From positions 186,001 to 250,000 of the forward strand of contig BLSF01000049.1 of the NCBI GenBank assembly GCA_012862575.1: a stretch of 64,000 bases of DNA, given 5' to 3'. Under the pieces are notes generated by a model. It saw only the letters and a program-made list of their open reading frames with translations. It searched no databases and was not told the DNA's origin. Of the stretch, positions 3,135 to 15,317 are shown one piece after another. Each line of letters opens with the position of its first letter. Within the stretch, counting starts at the first letter, position 1. This DNA comes from Parietichytrium sp. I65-24A (taxonomy: Eukaryota; Sar; Bigyra; Thraustochytrida; Thraustochytriidae). Position numbers and translations under genes: made by a program.

Positions 3135-5120
3135 ATGCTCTCAGCGTTGCGCAGAAGCGTGGAACGGTCCAAAGCGGGGGCGCCAGGTCAAAAGGTCGGC
3201 AAGGAGAAGCCATGGAAAGCAGAATACCATAAGCTGCTGGTGTGCGACAATGGCAAGGACAACACCCCGGAAACCACATCGCAAGGCGACCTGGTCTACT
3301 TTATCAGCCAGTCCCGCTCTCCGGGCCATAAAGATATCGGGCAGGATTCCATGGCAACTGCTCGGCATGGGGATTGGGAATGCAACGTGCTGTGCGATGG
3401 GCATGATCGCGACGGTCATCTTGTCGCACGTGCGGTGTGTATGACATTGCCGCACATTGTGCTTCGCCGCATTCACTCGCGAACATACCCACAAAAGAAA
3501 CCTGAAGCTGCGATTCTTCGCCAGGCATTTGAAGAATGTGCCAACCTGATCGCTTGGACTTCCGAAGGCGGTAAGTTTCGAAAAGAATGGTTTGAACGAA
3601 GTGACAGAAGTGCAAAAGGGACGTGGTTTAACAAGAGACTTGCTTGTTTGTTTGTGCAGTTAAAACTGGTATGTTTGTGAAGGTGTTTGGCGGCCCTTGG
3701 AAAGACAAAGTCGGCTACGTTGGAGACTCCAAAGACTCGTAAGTTCAGCTCTCCTTGGTTTTGGGTGCTAAACTCCTTTCACAGGTGGATTGGATGCTCA
3801 CGGACCTTTAACCTCCTTTGATCTTGATGTGCTTGCAGCTCCACGTCCGTTGTCATCATTGTTGATGCAAATGGCTACCACCGCCCAACCATCGAAAACA
3901 AGTACTTGAAGAGGGCAAAATACACAGGCGGGTCAACATGTATCTGTGTGGTTCGAAATATGAAAACTGGGGACTGCAGGCTAGCATTCACCGGCGATTC
4001 GAGAGCATTGATCGTTCGCGGCAAGCACTTCGATGATCCCATCTTGAAACCGATATTTGGTCTTCAAACGTATGATAAGAATGGCAAGCCATCTGTTCCA
4101 CCAATGGGTATCACCTCTCCTGCTCACAACGTGTTTAGCAAAGATGAACTTGTCCGGTTGAACACAAATCACGCAGGAGCGTTTGAGATTGACGGAGCTT
4201 TTTTGGTCAATCCCGTGACAAAGTTTGCCATTCAACCCACCCGAGGTTTCGGCGACTTTGACATGTTTGGAACGGGCTACACAAACGAGCCCGAGGTGTC
4301 ATCGTCTTTCAAGCTGGAGAAAGGAACCTTCATCATGTGCGCGTCCGACGGAGTTTTCGATGAACACGTGTGGAAAGACGACGAGCTCGTCACTTTCTTT
4401 GATCAGCAGCTGAAGACCTCTGGAAAGGTTTCTGTAATCGGCGAAGTTCTCTACAAGGAAACTCTTGAGCGAAGTCTTGCGGGAGGCTATGTTGACGACA
4501 TTTCCTTCTTTATGATGGTGGCCCCAGAGCCACAGGAAGAAAGCGAGACGTCTTCTTCTGCAGAGTCAGTGTCCGACTCTGCCGATGCGACGGAGGAAGC
4601 AAGCGTTGGGTCAAGGCATTCTTCTCGCCTGAGCGGAACTGAGGCTAAGGCCTCAGATGTAAAATCTCGTAAGAGCTTGCCAGCTGGAAACCGCAAGAGC
4701 TTGCTTGGCGGTCTGCTGAAGAAAAAGCCAAAGACACCAAAAGGCAAACCAAAGCGTGCCTCTGAGCCAGCCCCTAACGAAGAAGTCATTACTACCAAGC
4801 CTGACATTGAAAAGCCAAACCCAGAGGACCGACGCAAAACTATCGATCGCAAGGAGCGAGGATCATTCACGGAGCTTTCGGATCTATTGAAAGAAGAAAT
4901 GAGTGCGCGAGGAAATGGAACCAAAGACGAGAAGGATGACGCAAACGAAGAGCTCGCAAGTTTGGTCCTGAAGAGGTATGCCTCTCGTTATGGTCATTCT
5001 CTAGAGGAGATTGATATGGGACGCGAAGTGCGCACCGAGGCTGCACGCTTCGGAGCACGTCTTTCTGCGCGCCTCTCCCGTCGCCCCAAGTCAGACTCGG
5101 AAGACGAGGAGGACAAGTAA
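3135..5120 (+). CDS. PP2C-family protein phosphatase
   Basis: Metal-dependent Ser/Thr phosphatase of the PPM/PP2C family, 598 residues. Exons 3135..3570, 3660..3738 and 3839..5120; both introns have GTAAGT donors and CAG acceptors and the joined frame is unbroken. PP2C motifs appear in order: the first metal-site region HKDIGQDSM, a divergent CDGHDRDGH in place of DGHGG, TGDSRALI, GFGDFDMF, the metal-binding ASDGVFD and finally VDDISFF. The catalytic domain covers roughly residues 30-390. A Ser/Glu-rich then Lys-rich tail of about 200 residues follows, probably disordered and possibly regulatory or nuclear-targeting. Substrate unknown. The start is the first ATG of the frame that leads into the domain; the N-terminal 30 residues are basic. 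Function class is secure, specificity is not. Confidence 0.85.
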
Positions 5121-6349
5121 ATTCGTCTTGTCTTAGCTGTTGGTACGTATCATAATAACTTTTCTTTTCCTAAATAGAATGAAACATTTTCAATGTGTGT
5201 GTTTATGACAGTTCCTGATATTTCCTGATGGCGGAATCGATCGGCTGCGAGACTATTCTATTCGCTGAGTTCCGCAACTTGGCCATGTGTAGAACTTGGG
5301 TTCCCGTAACCCCAGGCATCATGAAAAATATTCAGAACATGTATAATAACACTCACGGCTAAGCTTTTGGCCCTTGCCGAATTTGCGCGCACAAGGTTTA
5401 ATTTCACCTTCAGGCGCAGGGCTGCTGTGGCGCTGAACTTTACCTCTTTTGCTCTATTGAGAGAATGCCTCAGAGTTCAGAAGAACTTAGTAAAATTTAG
5501 AAAGAGCTTGTTTTCAGATATGATTTCGTTCTCGACGAGATACAACGAGAGACGTCAGAGCCAAACGCCAGAGCGTCGCCAATACGACGAAGCGGCTTCA
5601 CTTTCAAGGAGTGAAGACAAAGCAAGGCATTCGGGCTTTCAAGAAGTTTCAGGAACAGTACCGAGACCATCAGCTCCATCAGCTGCCCGTCTTAACTGTA
5701 AATCAAGGGGTGCACTGTGCTGGGCAGGGGCTAAGGCTTGCGCATTCCTTTTCTGGTACGCATTGGGACACTACTACTGTTACTAATAACACAATTCCTA
5801 TCGATGCTCGATTGAACGAGTAAGAGTTTTTATACTAGGTTCAGCAGGAAATGGCTATGACTGAGAATAGCATAATTCTAATAATGAAGTTCATCTTTAG
5901 GTAGAGAAGTCTTACTCCGGGGTGAGAGTATACGACGCTGACTGGTATTATTCCGGTCCCAGCCAACGCTAGCTTGCAATGCCATGGATGCTTAATCTAT
6001 CTTGACCTATCTGAAGTATCTGAAGCATTGAGTGCTTTACCGGTACTGCTAGCTAGCACAAGGATTGTGATAGTTCAGTGTTCAGGACTCGAAATGAGAA
6101 TTCAGAACGTACTTTGAGGGGTTGGTTGTTGGTCAGTGCTACCACGAGGCACATATTACTGGCAGGTCAGGTCAGGTCGTCCGAGTCAGGCAATCCCCAT
6201 TCCACCCTTCGTGGCAACCATACGCGAGGCCATTTTCCACGGGCCGAGTGCGCGCTCGACACCATTTTCAGCTGCTAGGACTACGAGCTCGCGAAACGTA
6301 CTCAGGATCCACGGGTATTGTCGATTCGACGCTTTGGAGATAGCTCACG
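5121..6349. other. Intergenic, no supported gene
   Basis: About 1.2 kb between the phosphatase and the C1-domain gene. Open frames here are short and have no recognisable domain. A palindromic TACCGGTAC lies near 6038 next to a GCTAGCTAGC run. Confidence 0.5.
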
Positions 6350-7246
6350 ATGCAGGGCCAGTATTGGGACGACAGCGTGGTTCCCCACTCGTTCAAAGTG
6401 GCCACCTTCAAAAGGCCCACCAAGTGCGGCGTCTGCCATAAGCTCTTGACCGGGATCTTGAAGCAAGGTTGCAAATGTTCTGTTTGTGGATTTGCAGCGC
6501 ACGAGAAGTGCAAGGCCTTGGCGCACGGAGACTCGCCTTGCAGCTTAGGTGAACGGGAGCATCAGACGGGGAAATGGACATTCAAACAAGAAGCTTCATT
6601 CTTTCCTGAGGAGGAGCCAGCGCCAATGCTTTTGGACCCCTCGCATGATGAAGAGTGCTCCAGCACACATTCTCTACTGGCCCACGACTTGCGATCAAAG
6701 ACATTCACCTCACCTCGAGACTGTGACCACTGTGGAAAATTGCTTCTGGGTGTTTACAAGCAAGGGCTGGAGTGCAGCTGCTGTGGAGTTGTCGCCCATA
6801 AAAAGTGTGCCCAAGCGGTGCATAGCTCCTTTGAGTGCTGTGCGTCTGAATCAAGGCGGACCAAGCAGTCTCTGAGAGTGCCAATTCTCGAACAACAGGA
6901 CTATTTCGAGGACAACGAGGAAGCCCTATTCACTACGGGCCTATATGACGGAACGAAGCAGGATAGGTTTGGGGAAGACAAAGACAATGTCGAAACGCAG
7001 CCAAAGTTCGAGAAACTGGGCAAATTCGTAGAGAACTTGAAGCGCAACGTGCAAGACATGGATCGCGCCATCGATGCAGGACTTGACAAATGCTCCGCTG
7101 CAACACACAAGGCAATAGAATCTATGGAGCAGGATATTGCCCGCGAGTTTCGCAAAGGTTCGGGCTCGATGGCCAAAGCGTTGCATAAATTGGCAGATAA
7201 ACTTGAGCAAAAATCCTTGGAAGGCTCCAAAGGCCTAGAGGTTTAG
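6350..7246 (+). CDS. Protein with two C1 (diacylglycerol/phorbol-ester-type) zinc fingers
   Basis: Intronless, 298 residues. Two C1 domains with the H-x12-C-x2-C...C-x2-C-x4-H-x2-C pattern: residues about 13-64 (CGVCHKLL, CSVCGFAAHEKC) and about 112-162 (CDHCGKLL, CSCCGVVAHKKC). C1 domains bind diacylglycerol or act as protein-interaction zinc fingers in kinase C, Raf and DGK families. No kinase or other catalytic domain follows. The C-terminal third (from about 215) is charged and helical, with heptad-like spacing, so an adaptor or membrane-recruited scaffold is likely (inference). Whether it binds diacylglycerol cannot be told by eye. The start ATG lies 36 bases before the first conserved His. 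Confidence 0.8.
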   Translation: MQGQYWDDSVVPHSFKVATFKRPTKCGVCHKLLTGILKQGCKCSVCGFAAHEKCKALAHGDSPCSLGEREHQTGKWTFKQEASFFPEEEPAPMLLDPSHDEECSSTHSLLAHDLRSKTFTSPRDCDHCGKLLLGVYKQGLECSCCGVVAHKKCAQAVHSSFECCASESRRTKQSLRVPILEQQDYFEDNEEALFTTGLYDGTKQDRFGEDKDNVETQPKFEKLGKFVENLKRNVQDMDRAIDAGLDKCSAATHKAIESMEQDIAREFRKGSGSMAKALHKLADKLEQKSLEGSKGLEV

Positions 7247-7426: not shown

Positions 7427-9253
7427 TTATGGGAAGGAATAGAGTCGACGACCGAGGTCGATGGTCATTGACCCCCCAGGAAGAGGCTTCTTATCCTTGG
7501 TGGTGGTGAAAACGAAACGATGCCCCATAAAAGTGTTGATCTCAAAATTCGTGCCCTTGGCGAGTCGGCCTTGGTGTACATATGCACCAGAGTCTGGTGC
7601 AACCCAATACACATCCAAAGTTTGGTCCCCTTTGTTCAGGAAGGTAGCACGAAACTGACCATTCTCCGAATCCTCCTCATCTGCGTCGTCCGCGCCTGGT
7701 CTCGATGGAGAAAGATGCTTCCACCGGGTTCCTTCGCCATAGCTATGAGAAGAGTAAACTGGGTTTTCTGGTTCCACTGAAGGCGTAGACTTGTATCGGG
7801 CCCACTCAGAGTTATTGTCCTTGTTGCGGCGCGCAGTCGCAGCCAAATCGTCCCAGCTTTGGTCCTTCAAAGGCTTGAGAGGTTGGAAATGGCAGAACGC
7901 GCCGAGGTGATCGCCGCCTTGGTTGCGGTATGGACGGCCGTGAGCCAATTTCGCGGACTCATACATAGTCATGCTGCCACCAGGATGCTCATATCGAACA
8001 TGACGCCCTTTCCAGTCAATCACCTCCAATGGCCATGGATGCTCATTTGCTTTAGTCTCGTTGAGCTTTTTGATGCTCAGCGTCACCGACAGTACATGTG
8101 TGTCGATCCGATCAACGTGGTTTTTTAAGAAGCTGCCATCCGGGTAGATCCTTTCACCGTAAAAGCTGGTGAGTTTGACTGGCACACCAGCCCACTCCTC
8201 CACAAGCGGTTTGAGATATTTATTTGCCATCTCTTCCTTGATGTGGCGCTCTTTGTCCAGATCAATGAACTTTGTGGGTATCTCGGTGAAAGACATTTGA
8301 GTTGACTCAGAGTCCCAAGACTCTGTTCTTGCGTCATGCCTCTCGTAAAAGTCCAGCAACCACTTGAGCATTTCCTCGGGAATTGGCAGAGCTTTGAAAC
8401 CAAGCGTATGCGAGAATGCAGGAAATGCAGGTGCAAGGTACAGATTTCTCATGGTATTATCGATGGAGGTCGAGTCCCGGCGCTTGAGCCACTCACCTTG
8501 CTCCTTGTAGGTCCTCAAAAACGGACTGATTTGTGGCTCGCCCTCATTCCGAATGCGCGCCATGATCCATGCCTTCAGGTCACTGAGACCATCCCACAAT
8601 TCAGTGTTCGTGCAATGATCTTTGTATTCTTTGCATCCCATCAGCTCGATGGCTTCATTTTCCGGTGTTGAGCCACGGGAGCAAAAGTCAATGAACCCGT
8701 CGCAAGAGCGAGGCACGAACACAATCTGGACCTTGGAGGACTGCTGGTCCACGCCAAACCGCTCGGCCAGGTCAAGCTCGGGGATGAACTCGTACCAGGA
8801 TCTCCTCGGAGCAGAGTACATGTCATAACGCGCAATAAGGAGCCGCTCTCGAGCGGGGAGTTCTTTCTCAGCGAGAAGGTCCCATTTGAGGTTCTTGAGT
8901 TCCTTCACGCTCTCAGGGTCGCTGCTGTTAAAGAAGGCGACAACGCTGGGAGGGCGCAAGGCATCCGGAGTGTCCTGGAGAAGATCGTCGAGCAGACCGC
9001 CGTGAACAAGATCAATCACACGATGCCCAATTCGAACTTTTGGCAACCCCGGCTGCGAATAGTCGTAAACCGCCGGGATAGTATCATGAAAGTTTGGCGT
9101 TGTGGAGAAGATTGAGTCTTTCGACGTTTTGACGACTGTGTTGCCAAGGAGACTATCGAACTTGCTCTGAACAAAAGAGATTGAGTCCGTGAGAAGAGAC
9201 GCCTCCGAGGATGTGGCCGTCCAGAGAAGGACCGTAGCTCCGAAGATTTTCAT
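7427..9253 (-). CDS. Secretory prolyl-4-hydroxylase-like oxygenase with N-terminal thioredoxin-like and C-terminal VHL-beta-like domains (intronless copy)
   Basis: 608 residues, one exon; start at the ATG complementary to 9251-9253 because it opens a signal peptide (MKIFGATVLLWTATSSEA). Residues about 90-250: thioredoxin-like fold (PPSVVAFFNSSD, VQIVFVPRSCDGF) with no CxxC at the usual site but paired cysteines later. Residues about 290-460: Fe(II)/2-oxoglutarate dioxygenase of the P4H type, with FYGERIYPDGSF, the HVD metal pair near residue 379, and the distal His in LAHGRPYR near residue 439. Residues about 530-605: a segment like the pVHL beta domain (LDVYWVAPDSG, INTFMGHRFVF). Inferred role: hydroxylation of proline or a similar residue in the secretory pathway, with a linked reader. 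The divergent neighbour at 10735 is its paralogue and confirms the domain order. Oxygenase call strong; VHL call by eye. Confidence 0.8.
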   Translation of the reverse strand: MKIFGATVLLWTATSSEASLLTDSISFVQSKFDSLLGNTVVKTSKDSIFSTTPNFHDTIPAVYDYSQPGLPKVRIGHRVIDLVHGGLLDDLLQDTPDALRPPSVVAFFNSSDPESVKELKNLKWDLLAEKELPARERLLIARYDMYSAPRRSWYEFIPELDLAERFGVDQQSSKVQIVFVPRSCDGFIDFCSRGSTPENEAIELMGCKEYKDHCTNTELWDGLSDLKAWIMARIRNEGEPQISPFLRTYKEQGEWLKRRDSTSIDNTMRNLYLAPAFPAFSHTLGFKALPIPEEMLKWLLDFYERHDARTESWDSESTQMSFTEIPTKFIDLDKERHIKEEMANKYLKPLVEEWAGVPVKLTSFYGERIYPDGSFLKNHVDRIDTHVLSVTLSIKKLNETKANEHPWPLEVIDWKGRHVRYEHPGGSMTMYESAKLAHGRPYRNQGGDHLGAFCHFQPLKPLKDQSWDDLAATARRNKDNNSEWARYKSTPSVEPENPVYSSHSYGEGTRWKHLSPSRPGADDADEEDSENGQFRATFLNKGDQTLDVYWVAPDSGAYVHQGRLAKGTNFEINTFMGHRFVFTTTKDKKPLPGGSMTIDLGRRLYSFP

Positions 9254-10734
9254 TCTTTCGACGTGAATGCAGAGCAAGCTGAGCTACTCGCGAAGGATTT
9301 TGGTTCCAATCAAAACCCCGAAGGCTTTGACTTTGCAGTGTTTGGTTTCGGGTTTGCTTGGAGTCATGAGACAACATCCTTGCCGGTCGCACACTTGGAA
9401 ATAGGTCTTGGTCGAGAAAGCGTACGGTGGCCTTATTAATCGGTACGCTTTCGCGTTCATCAAAAACTTTTGGGCTACGAAATGTCTGTTGACTGCGAAT
9501 GCACGAACTGAGGGACCCCCTCAAATACATCAGTTTTGAGTAGACACTACTAAATACTTTCTTAGGTACTGTTCCTCCTATGTTTCTGCATATATGAGTT
9601 TGTAGCAATGCATGTTTCTCTGCGCAAAACGTCAGGTCAGAAGCTTCTTCATCGAATAAACAAAACTTGCTGAGAGAAACGAGAAACTGACCAACCGCCT
9701 CTTCCGGTTCTTCCGGTTTTCCAACTGATTGAAGCACAACTCTCAACCTCACTGTTTGCTCCTCCTGGCGAGAACTCACCGTGTTCGATAGAGACTCTGG
9801 TTCTCCGATGTTCTTCAGCTCCTTCCTTTTCCTTATGTTGTCGTTGGTGACAGTGTTACACAGTCGCTATTAGATGCTGACAGTATCTGACTTGGTTTCG
9901 AAGGAGTTTCTTCAGATTCAGATTTTCTTCAGACCTGAAGGGGGGACATTTGCCACGTTGCTTTTGACCAGCGAGGAACGATGCTTTGGTGCACAATCGA
10001 TTCCAGCTTTAGCGCTGCAGCTGACTAAAATCTCAGCGTGTATAACACAAGTGCCGGTAACAGTAACAGCGTCACTGCGTGCTACTATTGTACGAGGAAA
10101 CTTTCCACGAAACACCTCCCAACTATGCAGGGGTTAATATTATTAGTACCGCTACTCACTAACGAAACGCACGAAAAACTCCCACAAGTACCATCGGCAA
10201 TAAGATGCTTACGGCAAACTCATCAGCCCGGACAGCCCGGACGCTGGAACCAAGCTCATCCAAGCACTCGATGCATTTGTTTTCATTAGCCCTGGTAGAT
10301 ATGGCTCCACGCTTTCGAGGCCAAAATGAACCAAAGTCTCAAGCGGCACAAGATACAGCAGGTGCACGAGCGCGTCGCGAGCAAGTCTCTGTGCGAACTG
10401 GAGCACCAGCGAAGTGAAAATTTGCTTAAAATTTTTTATTTAAACACAAGCACATGCAAGCTATCATCGAGCCTACCGGTACTCAGTAACAACTACAGTG
10501 TCTTATTCGCAGTGCTGGGAAAGTGGGAAAAGTGAAGGAGGGAAGAACAGCTCTGTGTTCCCCGTGGCAGGCACGGGAAAGACAAGCAAGATCAAGCAAG
10601 AAAGCGAGACAAGAAAGAGAGAAGAGCGAAACACTTTGAAACCCTCCACAGAGACGGGATCGCCGTTACGCTCGACTTGATCACGTCGGAAGTCATATCG
10701 CTTTGACAACTCGTCATTTGGTTTTGCTGGCGCA
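9254..10734. promoter_or_regulatory. Shared divergent upstream region of the two oxygenase-VHL paralogues
   Basis: About 1.5 kb between two head-to-head start codons. No gene seen. It should hold both promoters, possibly shared. It contains CTACCGGTAC near 10471 and purine-rich sequence at 10505-10660 just before the plus-strand gene. I cannot identify a specific factor site. Confidence 0.4.
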
Positions 10735-12983
10735 ATGAGAACATTCAGGTTGCGGGCAGGCGCGGCAGTCCTTGTGCTCCTGCTTCAGGTCGCCTTGGCT
10801 ACGGGTTTCTGGACCGCGATCTCGGAGTTCCTGTTTGGCAAGAAGCCCAAGAACCCCAAGCCAGCTCCTCAACATGCAGAAGGCGTGATCGTCGCAGATT
10901 ACGCCGACATGGACCTTCCGCCAATTCGCACCAACGCACGAGTCTTGGACCTCATGCATGGCGACCACTTTGACACAATATTGCGCGACGTTCCGGATGA
11001 ATTGAGGCCTCCAAGTGTCGTTGCTTTCTATGATTCTTCAAACAAGGTTTGCATGCAAAAATTTCAAAGCCTGAAATTTGACGCAATGGCAGAGCGCAAT
11101 CTTCCAGCGCGTGAACGTCTTTTCATCTCTCGATACGACATGTACTCTGCACCACGCCGCACATGGTAAGTCCTTTAGATGTCTCCGGGTTTGCTCGCCA
11201 TCATAATACTAATTTTATGTCGCGCGGCCGGCACAGGTTCAAATTCACACCGGAAATGGATTTGGCCAAGCGATTTGATGTCACTGAGTGTCCTCAAGTA
11301 GTCTTTGTCCCCCGAAGCTGCAATGGGTCTACGGAGTGGTGCATTAGAGGAAAAGATCCTCGCGATGACAGGTTGCAACTGGTGGGCTGTGACGATTTTG
11401 TTGAACAGTGCGAAGGAACTGAGAAGTGGAACTGGTCAGGGAATTTGCAGGAGTGGATAACAGAGCGGATCAGGAATGAAGGTACTCCCAAGGTTTCCAG
11501 ATTCCTCGGCTCTTTCGCGGAACAAGGTATGTGGCTGCGCGTAAGTTGGCTGAGTCATAACTTTCCATGCATTGACAAGGCGGCCCTCAACCTGACAGTG
11601 GTAATTTTAAAATAGTCACGAGAGGTCACCACCACAGACACACACATCAGAAACACATACGGCGCTCAGCAATTCCCAGCGTTCACAGAGACAGGATTTA
11701 AGATTGTGCCAATACCTAAAGAGGTAAACGACTGGCTCCTGGCATTCATGAAAAGGAACGAGCAGTTTAGGCGGTCGGAAATCTGGCAAGGTCAGTCCAC
11801 TGCAATAAACTTCCATGAAGCGCAAACGTCTTTTGTGGACTTGGACAGGGAAGGCCATGCAAGGTCAAAGTTGGCCAATGAGTACCTTAAACCTCTTGTT
11901 GAGGAGTGGAGTGGCATGAAAGATCTTGAACTAACCGCATTCTATGGTGTTCGAGAGTATCACGATGGCTCGTGGCTGCACAATCATATTGACAGATTCG
12001 ACACCCACGTACTTAGCATCACAATTTCGCTTCTCAAGGAAGACGAGGCGCTTGCAGAGCAGAACCCTTGGCCCCTCGAAGTGATTGACTGGAATGGTGA
12101 TCATGGTAAGTCGAAAAGCGCCCTGTGGCACTGTATGCTCCCTTTAGCAGCGTTCGTCTAACCTGTGATGCATCAAAAGTTCGCTATCATCATCCCCCCG
12201 GTACCATGGTGCTATACGAAAGCAGCAAACTTATTCACGGAAGACCGTTCAGAAACAAGGGCGGCACCCATGCGGGATGTTTTGTTCATTTCAAGCCCCG
12301 CAGTATGCACAAAGCCGACGGGGGAATGTGGGATAAAATAGCAAGCGATGCGAGGAGGAACATAGAGCGATACACACAAAAGGCGAGGTATAGGTCCCGG
12401 CCATCTGAGCAGCCTGATGACATTGAGTACTCGGAAATGAATGTCGGAGAAAATAGTGTGTGGGAGCACTTGAAGGCACAAGAAGCGGATCGCTCCAAGT
12501 CTGAAGCGGATACCCCGTTTGCAGTCACATTCAAGAACAAGTCAGACAGGACCCTCCATGTATACTGGCTGTCAAATACAGGTGACAAGGTTCTTCAAGG
12601 CACCATCGGTGCAAGCTGTAAGTCAAAACGCTCTGATGAAAATGTCGAAATGAGCTGTCACAACTCACCATGATGATAACTGCAGCGAGCTTTGAGGTAA
12701 AGACGTTTGAAGGACATCGTTTCTTTTTCGCAAATAATGGCTCCGAGGAGCCGTTGCCGTCTGGCATTTTCGTAAGTTTCAGAACGAGTTAGTCCCTGGA
12801 AACACTGGAACCAAAATAATAAACATCTGACTCTTGGCTTTCCTGGACTAGACAATGGTACGCGGTCAGACCGTGTATAAGTATACTCTGAACAAAGACG
12901 GCCAAGAGAAAGCGCCAAGCAAGTGGGCTGATTTTGTTCGGGCAAAGCTTGCAGAGGAGAAAATGCTCGATAAGGAGTTGTAA
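10735..12983 (+). CDS. Secretory prolyl-4-hydroxylase-like oxygenase with thioredoxin-like and VHL-beta-like domains (intron-containing copy)
   Basis: Paralogue of the gene at 7427-9253, 626 residues. Exons 10735..11165, 11237..11540, 11616..12105, 12180..12617, 12686..12771, 12852..12983; the five introns are 68-80 bases, all GT-AG, and the phases agree. Alignment with the intronless copy fixes each junction. Signal peptide at the start (LRAGAAVLVLLLQVALATGF). Thioredoxin-like domain (PPSVVAFYDSSN, VVFVPRSCNGS), again with no CxxC. Dioxygenase residues: HIDRFDTHVLSI and LIHGRPFRNKGG. The VHL-like domain has LHVYWLSNTGD and VKTFEGHRFFF and is split by introns 4 and 5. A Lys/Glu-rich tail of about 30 residues is absent from the other copy. 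AATAAA overlaps the stop region at 12984. Confidence 0.82.
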
Positions 12984-13823
12984 ATAAAGCGCCACCTGCG
13001 CCACCATTGTCCATTGTGACGAGCACTGCACCACATGCACCGCTGACACCGCTGTAGCGCGCATTAAGACCTTCCTATTCGGATGCGGAGCAACTCCGTT
13101 CGAACTTATTTTTAAAGTATTTTTTTTCTCTCCTCGAGTAGCGCTAGGCACAAATTGGACACTTGCGTGGTGCATCTCCCCTTGCTACGCAACGTCGCCC
13201 CTTAGAATACGCCACAACAAACGGGGAACAGACAACGAGGACTAAGGTTCTCCTGATGAAACACTATAGCAGCGGAGATGGGGGGACCTCTTGGATAGCT
13301 TAGCTAATTTTGGATACTAAGTTGCTGCCCAGCCATCTACGGAGTGGAGTAGGATCGCCAAGACTGATAGAAAGCAAATCAGGTGAGAAGAGTGCCACAG
13401 ATAGAGAGGTGTGAGTCGTGTGAACGGAAGGCTGCGGCAACAAAGGTGAGCGACAGACTTGCAGGTCGGCAATACAGATCTCTGTCTGCGGCATCTGCGG
13501 CTGCGAATCGCCAGGAAAACAGCTCCTCAACTCGGGCGCGCGGTAAGTTAGCTCTGGGGTGAACGGGAAGGGAGGGGGGCAGGCTCTCAAAGAAGCAGCC
13601 TGCAAGTGAGACAGAGACGGAGACGTGGACAGAGCGAAAGAGAGAGGGAGAGAGAAACAGAGAGAAAGGCGAGGTACCCATCAGACAAGACAGCACAAGA
13701 CAGCAGAGGCTGGGTGGTGTGTTGGTTAGGTAGCGTGTGGAGCACTGTTGTGCTCAAGCTGGTGGCGGGTATTGACAGATAGAACAACTTTCGGTTTCAC
13801 AGCAATATATCGCATTGGAGAAA
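12984..13823. other. Intergenic leader region of PDH E1-alpha with GA-rich tract
   Basis: No gene seen. A GA-rich tract on the coding strand at about 13608-13669 lies 155 bases before the PDH start codon, matching the pattern before several other genes here. Confidence 0.5.
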
Positions 13824-15317
13824 ATGCTTGGACTTGCAAAGCGAGCAGCTCGCTCCGGCCAGAGCTTTACTGCCGGTGGCCAGAGATGGATGAGCTCCAC
13901 TCAATCGTTTGACATTCCTGTCGCTTTTAAGGGGCACAACATCGAGCCTCCTCCTCAAAAGGCAGAATCTTCCAAGGAGGAGCTCCTGGCATACCACAAG
14001 TTTATGTACACTTTGCGAAGGATGGAGATCACATCCGACTCGGAGTACAAGGCTCGCAACATTCGTGGGTTCTGCCATCTTTACGACGGACAGGTGAGTT
14101 TTCGGATTCATTGGGTTTCACTTTGTTGGCACTGGCACATGCACTAACGATACTCCCGACCCTGGGACTCAAAGGAAGCTGTCGCACAAGGTATCGAGGC
14201 GGCGCTGACTCGCGATGATGACTGGATCACCACATACCGCTGCCACGGAGCCGCGCTCGCTCGCGGCGCTACTGTCCAGGAGATCTTCGAGGAGATGTTT
14301 GGCTTCCGCAATGGAATTGCAAGGGGCAAAGGCGGCAGCATGCACATGTACAACAAGGAAACCAACTTCTACGGAGGCGCAGCTATCGTCGGCGCTCAAG
14401 TGCCAATTGGTGCAGGCTTGGGATTTTTCCACAAGTACAAGCGCCAGAGCGACGACGAGAAAACGAATGTGTCGATCTGCATGTATGGCGATGGCAGCGC
14501 TAACCAGGGGCAGTAAGTTTTGCAACCAACTGTACTTCTTCTGCGCCGCTGTACACAAGGACACCTTACTCACAAAAAAACTACTGATTTGTCTGACGTG
14601 AACAGGTGCTGGGAGGCTGCAAACATGGCCGCTCTGTGGAAGGTTCCAGTGATCTTCGCTTGCGAGAACAACGAATGTAAGTATTGCCAACTACGACGTG
14701 TTGCCCTATATTTGTCTCCAACCGTGGGACCTGGATCTGGATGCTAATTCCCGTCAATTGTGTTAAATGTTTGGCGTGTAGATGGTATGGGAACCTCGGT
14801 GAACCGCTCCTCCTACATTACTGAGTACTACAAACAGGGTAACAAGATTCCGGGATTGTTCATTGATGGTATGGATGTCCTTGCGGTCCGCGAAGGAATC
14901 AAGTTCTGCAAGGATTATTGTGGTTCTGGAAAAGGCCCAATCTACGTCGAGCTCAAGACTTACCGTTACCACGGACATTCTATGAGCGACCCTGGTATCA
15001 CTTACCGCAGCCGCGAGGAGGTCACCAAGGTCAGACAAAGCCGTGACCCTATTGAGAACGTCAAGAACCGCCTGGTCCAGGCAGGTTGGGCTACCGAGGA
15101 TGAGCTCAAGGATACCGAGAAGGCGATTCGCGTAGAAGTGCAGGAAAGCCTCCGCCGGGCAAAGGACTCGGCTCAGCCTGAGCTCGAAGAACTTTTTACT
15201 GACATCTACACCTCCGGAAAGGCACACGCAGAGCCAAAACACCGCCGCCTTGAGAGCGAATTCCCTTCTCGTATTCGCATGCCTGATCTTGAGAAGAGCA
15301 AGCGATTCGCAAACTAG
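13824..15317 (+). CDS. Pyruvate dehydrogenase E1 component, alpha subunit
   Basis: Mitochondrial E1-alpha of the pyruvate dehydrogenase complex: with E1-beta it decarboxylates pyruvate using thiamine diphosphate and acetylates the E2 lipoyl group. Exons 13824..14093, 14175..14512, 14606..14676, 14782..15317 (introns 81, 93 and 105 bases); 404 residues. Seen: a basic N-terminus (MLGLAKRAARSGQSF) suited to mitochondrial import, the substrate-loop YRCHGAALARG, RGKGGSMHMY, the thiamine-diphosphate motif GDGSANQGQ...ENN (split by introns 2 and 3) and the phosphorylation loop YHGHSMSDPGITYRSREE, whose serines are PDH-kinase sites in animals. Length fits the family (about 390-410). ATG chosen as the first in the frame; it begins the targeting sequence. 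Confidence 0.95.

Follow-up and report, generated by a model that had tools for sequence, protein, structure and literature searches.

Two oxygenase genes in the window

The window analyzed here, a 64,000-nucleotide stretch of the thraustochytrid Parietichytrium sp. I65-24A (contig BLSF01000049.1, positions 186,001 to 250,000), contains two paralogous, divergently oriented neighboring genes, G1 and G2, each encoding a 2-oxoglutarate (2OG) oxygenase and a VHL-type beta domain on a single chain. G1 (window positions 7427 to 9253, minus strand, ATG at 9253) is a single exon of 608 amino acids that encodes an HGRP-type 2OG oxygenase followed by a C-terminal VHL beta domain, and its full-length predicted structure has a predicted local distance difference test score (pLDDT) of 91.6 and a predicted template modeling score of 0.81. 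G2 (10735 to 12983, plus strand) encodes 626 amino acids with the same architecture and an extra C-terminal tail that ends in DKEL. Its splice model comprises six exons (10735-11165, 11237-11540, 11616-12105, 12180-12617, 12686-12771 and 12852-12983), with GT..AG introns throughout and the reading frame preserved. The two proteins are 49% identical over 552 aligned columns. An earlier reading of the letters alone, hereafter the original prediction, had placed both paralogues at these coordinates and had joined oxygenase and VHL beta domain on one chain in each; the open frame of G1 and the frame-keeping model of G2 agree with it on both counts.

The oxygenase domain of G1 spans residues 279-476 (7826 to 8419, minus strand). 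Sequence and alignment place the HxD metal motif at H379-V-D381 (8111 to 8119) and the distal metal ligand, together with a near-invariant arginine, at H438-G-R440, followed by proline (7934 to 7942). Alignment to G1 puts the G2 domain approximately at 11670 to 12370 (plus strand, exons 3-4), with an HID motif at 11985 to 11993 and the distal HGR at 12236 to 12244. Relatives were collected in a search restricted to proteins of 0.55 to 1.75 times the length of G2, which favors a like layout. In the resulting alignment A1 of 75 sequences (G1 and P0001-P0074, with P0075-P0080 and the spliced G2 omitted), H379 is found in 75 rows, D381 in 74, and H438 and R440 in 73 each. G1 has the fold and the HxD...H triad of the prolyl 4-hydroxylase (P4H)/PHD class of 2OG oxygenases, and its closest structural neighbors in Foldseek include prolyl hydroxylases; other 2OG oxygenases score equally high against the model (6n1f at 15.5; BesD, ALKBH7 and SnoN at 13.3-13.4). 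VIA matches for the full-length model cover mainly residues 279-476, so the lack of thioredoxin or VHL matches in that list carries no weight. The P4H-type oxygenase of the original prediction is upheld in both paralogues by the motifs, their conservation and the fold match. No match was returned by Pfam for the whole of G1 or by phmmer for G1 against the PDB, and NCBIfam assigned no family to G1. The hhalign comparison of A1 with A4, an alignment of canonical P4Hs described below, gave a single alignment, apparently to a P4H tail contributed by P0074, and is uninformative for the HGRP domain.

Signal peptides were judged by hydropathy window alone. The start of G2 resembles a signal peptide and is strongly hydrophobic (10735 to 10800, plus strand; best 17-residue Kyte-Doolittle mean, 2.15), but in G1 the hydrophobic stretch is short (0.91) and residues 1-22 (9188 to 9253, minus strand) are a weak candidate. 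Retention signals are mixed among the relatives, with DKEL on G2 and none on G1. From these sequence features the chains are probably secretory. As to the thioredoxin-like domain that had been proposed, about residues 65-240 of G1 (8534 to 9061, minus strand) form strands and helices in the model, and weak matches to PF13098 occur in 5 of the 75 rows (best E-value [E], 0.01), but no CxxC was found within G1 residues 90-260.

The VHL-type beta domain and its pocket positions

The C-terminal segment of G1 (residues 531-608; 7430 to 7663, minus strand) is modeled with a pLDDT of 90.8 as a seven-stranded beta sandwich that superposes on the beta domain of pVHL, and all Foldseek and VIA rows listed for this model are VHL. 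Structure prediction of this segment, which the original prediction had named among the checks that could refute it, recovered a VHL-like fold. In G2 the domain is split across exons 4-6 (12512 to 12884, plus strand) and matches, with an E of 1e-28, a family VHL profile that was built without G2. In the proposed comparison with the Pfam VHL family (PF01847), the hand-cut segments of both proteins match (G1, 13.5 bits, E 0.077; G2, 19.7 bits, E 8.6e-4), but neither reaches the 21 bits of the curated cut-off, which is exceeded by a paralogue on contig C30 (22.1 bits) and by the relative P0145 (35.8 bits). The family profile drew 25 PDB sequences at E ≤ 10, of which 24 were versions of pVHL at E 0.13-1.3, none significant singly, and the VHL profile applied to 4054 reversed or shuffled sequences gave nothing under E 0.5. 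The VHL alpha domain, which carries the elongin BC box, is absent, as G1 terminates with the beta domain, and the 22 families to which rows of A1 match at E ≤ 1 do not include VHL_C.

In pVHL, hydroxyproline lies in a pocket lined by Trp88, Tyr98, Ile109, Ser111, His115 and Trp117, where Ser111 and His115 bond the hydroxyl and Tyr98 bonds the carbonyl (PMC6650433, PMC9528729). W550, T574, H578 and F580 of G1 align with human W88, S111, H115 and W117. Across 65 rows of the HGRP family (P0047 enters twice, with two modules), the Trp88 position is W in 63, the Tyr98 position Q in 52, the Ile109 position I or V in 52, the Ser111 position S or T in 63 and the His115 position H in 64, while the Trp117 position is F in 64 and Y in 1. 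Five of the six positions rank within the top 8 of 53 columns by conservation. Four rank within the top 5 in a P4H set of 71 rows for residue counts and 70 for ranking, partial matches included. Gaps were omitted from the ranking, and the hypergeometric figures of 1.1e-4 (top 8) and 2.5e-4 (top 5) use cuts picked after the ranks were known. Alignment A3 comprised 55 of the 74 relatives. The pattern matches what would be expected of a retained pocket, though it may in part be structural. Likeness to the pVHL beta domain (PF01847; PDB 1LQB and 6I7Q) consists of the fold over residues 69-152 and the positions of Trp88, Ser/Thr111, His115 and Asn78. The family differs from pVHL in lacking the alpha domain, in having mostly Gln for Tyr98 and Phe for Trp117, in its fusion to an oxygenase, in its apparently secretory setting and in Pfam scores below the cut-off.

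Recurrence of the pairing

A VHL block is present in 61 of the 74 aligned relatives, which come from genome, metagenome and transcript sets; the 13 rows of A1 without it are mostly short after the oxygenase and include P0052 and P0068, which were dropped by name because of misalignment. P0001 and P0006 are examples of transcript-derived relatives that have a layout like that of G2. Named close relatives are the thraustochytrids Mucochytrium quahogii and Hondaea fermentalgiana, and VHL-bearing relatives extend to the chlorarachniophyte Amorphochlora and a transcript labeled "Norr," which we read as Norrisiella. In the tree, G1 forms a clade with Hondaea FCC1311_021912 (support 99/98), and G2 and Hondaea FCC1311_021902 lie outside that clade. 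Because the two Hondaea proteins have close locus tags and are both assigned to a contig of 278,370 bases, the paired paralogues look older than the Parietichytrium and Hondaea species. A second protein search, with alignment A2, listed just seven proteins. As side observations, P0047 and P0148 each carry two C-terminal VHL-like segments and P0077 carries a single N-terminal one. Several records named Batrachochytrium salamandrivorans (BASA81/82; P0034, P0037, P0042, P0117 and others) also matched, and the three in the tree are nested within the protist family; our guess is that those assemblies are contaminated.

Searches of the Parietichytrium assembly (42.5 Mb, 172 contigs) showed that the pairing extends further than the original prediction, which described it in two paralogues, had indicated. 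The C30 gene is a third paralogue of G1 and G2, and a distant relative on C36 (locus L027, 2136-3602, minus strand; 486 amino acids) has the reverse order, with the VHL module (family profile E 1.7e-8) ahead of the HGRP oxygenase, an acidic tail and a C-terminal GRDEL. The module also occurs with canonical P4Hs. It stands behind the enzyme on C67 (P4H, 2.5e-11; Pfam VHL, 0.0015) and on C127 (family profile E 4.6e-9), whereas on C58 (locus L046, 2972-4417, minus strand) a membrane anchor, identified by eye, is followed by VHL (family profile E 6.3e-9), ShK and the P4H. On C37 a frame with a VHL-like segment (family profile E 2.8e-5) runs into the start of a P4H match. Three VHL searches of the genome together identified 10 genes, 7 of which encode oxygenases.

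Among the best 120 of 138 relatives of the C67 protein (E scaled to the 138 matched proteins), the module was found in 55 at a domain E < 0.01, including 45 of the 53 closest, whereas the 45 at the end of the ranking (P0162-P0206), which include many plant P4Hs, lacked it even at E < 0.05. Alignment A4 consists of 25 C67-type proteins selected for carrying the module; all 25 match Pfam P4H and 7 match Pfam VHL, and the A4 profile matches the algal P4H 2JIG at 3.3e-48 and pVHL at 0.029. The C67-type proteins are thus canonical P4Hs. Precomputed annotation gives both Pfam domains in 2 of the 120 (P0120 and P0145), which means that databases already show this architecture.

A candidate built-in reader and its alternatives

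We favor an explanation, at a probability of roughly 0.5, in which G1 and G2 are Fe(II)/2OG oxygenases of the P4H/PHD structural class in the secretory pathway, probably the endoplasmic reticulum, and the VHL-type module would most likely serve as a reader of product or substrate built into the enzyme. The module would dock a segment of the client that already bears hydroxyproline and hold the catalytic domain on the client, so that residues close by could be oxidized further, in a processive or sequential manner. Consistent with this proposal, the pairing recurs in various layouts, canonical P4Hs among them, and pocket positions are conserved.

Several observations weigh against it, among them the replaced pocket residues, the conserved Asn78 and the modules on other enzymes that are set out with the first alternative below. 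The 2OG anchor of P4H/PHD enzymes is a lysine or arginine 9-10 residues past the distal histidine, and no conserved basic residue occurs at those columns in the 75 rows (G447/D448 in G1); H449, 11 residues past the distal histidine, is conserved in 73 of the 75 rows, and R440, at H+2, is also near invariant. Retention signals are rare among close relatives as well as absent in G1. The VHL calls on C36, C58, C127 and C37 come from the family profile (E 2.8e-5 or better) and not from Pfam, and two of the three genome searches used modules taken from oxygenases; with Pfam VHL alone, just 2 of 5 matches in the genome are oxygenases. The genome has 19 PF13640 loci, 4 with a VHL module and 15 that show none. 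Collagen-like clients are not evident, as a search for them gave 7 matches at E ≤ 0.01, the best two being apparent repeats in doubtful frames. The HGRP enzyme can also do without the module, because the VHL profile matched nothing in the open reading frames of bacterial loci L002-L010 or of 31 viral loci that carry HGRP domains. A search for VHL in eight bacterial genomes with an HGRP domain likewise found none, but its control gave no match there either, so this negative does not establish absence.

A substantial though less probable alternative is that the VHL module is a beta sandwich of general use in binding proteins or ligands, acting in substrate docking, as a dimer contact or as a folding aid, and does not read hydroxyproline. 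The replacements of Tyr98 by Gln and of Trp117 by Phe, which could alter the ligand, fit that view, as does the conservation of Asn78, which is outside the listed pocket and ranks first and third, as strongly as the pocket itself; the conserved pocket positions may be structural. The module is also present on two enzymes that are not oxygenases, namely, an aldo/keto reductase ending in QRDEL (C13, locus L051, 1423-2775, minus strand) and an S-adenosylmethionine decarboxylase/spermidine synthase fusion (C21, locus L050, 1-1821, plus strand), and on a protein of unknown kind (C5, locus L001, 742-1881, plus strand); these are the other three of the 10 genes from the genome searches. A merely structural or general role accounts less readily for the near-constant retention, in two oxygenase families, of Trp88 and of Ser111 and His115, which in pVHL form the bonds to the hydroxyl, or for the repeated pairing of the module with hydroxylases. 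Nearly as probable as this alternative is that oxidation is sequential: 4-hydroxyproline produced by canonical P4Hs would be docked by the VHL module of an HGRP enzyme, whose oxygenase would then carry out a second oxidation of another kind, perhaps on the hydroxyproline itself or on a neighboring residue. This scheme is compatible with the docking explanation that we prefer. In marine bacteria, a P4H-like domain precedes an HGRP oxygenase on one chain (by eye; L002-L007, L009, L010, P0085 and P0086, with PF13640 precomputed for the last two), the protist protein P0074 unites an HGRP oxygenase with both a VHL-like segment and a domain of PF13640, and the HGRP active site is unlike that of P4H at the 2OG anchor. 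Against a distinct second reaction, no product is known and the top Foldseek neighbors include prolyl hydroxylases. As side observations, P0086 also has a PqqD-like insert, and of 31 contigs in the viral collection that encode the HGRP domain (L066-L096), L084 has P4H-like and HGRP parts in a single frame.

The original prediction had drawn a parallel with animal oxygen sensing. A one-chain oxygen-sensing or degradation device akin to EGLN-HIF-pVHL would share the pair of folds, including a PHD2-like oxygenase, but the missing elongin-binding alpha domain and the secretory features make it highly improbable; the parallel is weak, and we set this candidate aside for lack of the alpha domain. 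An error of gene prediction or assembly deserves almost no credence: G2 does require five introns, but G1 is a single frame and the like layout recurs in 61 of 74 relatives from genome, metagenome and transcript sets.

Compared with algal P4H (PDB 2JIG and 3GZE) and PHD-type enzymes (Pseudomonas putida P4H, 4J25; PHD2/EGLN1), the HGRP enzymes share the 2OG fold and triad but lack the Lys/Arg anchor at its usual position, and their oxygenase domain is preceded by a thioredoxin-like region and followed by a VHL module. In function, the closest analogue is found in the collagen P4H alpha subunit, likewise a hydroxylase that binds peptides through a module of its own, the peptide-substrate-binding (PSB) domain. 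PSB is a tetratricopeptide-repeat-type domain and not VHL, and the alpha subunit partners with protein disulfide isomerase. The PSB domain is reported to bind proline-rich and hydroxyproline-containing peptides, including one with two hydroxyprolines, and the report describes what the domain does in the reaction as unknown (PMC12433258). A protein of Litorilituus sediminis that is predicted to be secreted also has a VHL beta domain (PMC9002001), similar to G1 and G2 in these two respects; the abstract mentions no fused oxygenase. Work on the HIF pathway handles PHD and VHL as two distinct genes (PMC9618697, PMC5800844), and the choanoflagellate Salpingoeca rosetta is reported to have a VHL homologue (PMC9618697). 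Among the open-access papers listed by our searches, judged by title and start of abstract, we found no description of a P4H/VHL fusion; the original prediction likewise knew of no described system with this order.

In animals the writer and the reader of hydroxyproline are separate proteins, and this family has both folds on one chain in several domain orders. The family makes it testable, with small soluble domains, whether a VHL fold reads hydroxyproline outside animals and whether a reader of the product helps hydroxylases to modify their clients processively, a question that bears on what the PSB domain does in collagen P4H. We tentatively suggest that in SAR protists a hydroxyproline-reading VHL fold may be a working part of secretory hydroxylases, which would write and read proline oxidation to move along a client or add a second oxidation; reading of hydroxyproline in matrix-protein assembly, rather than in oxygen sensing, may then be an older use of the fold, which the HIF system of animals would have taken up again later in the cytosol.

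The surroundings of the two genes are ordinary, with a PP2C phosphatase at 3828-5117, a C1-domain protein at 6344-7243 and, by eye, a gene at 13815-15317 that resembles pyruvate dehydrogenase E1 alpha. Farther along, between 17409 and 36839, lie genes for a WD40/EF-hand protein, a Nop-domain protein, FANCL, an amine oxidase, a START-domain protein and an exportin-7-like protein.

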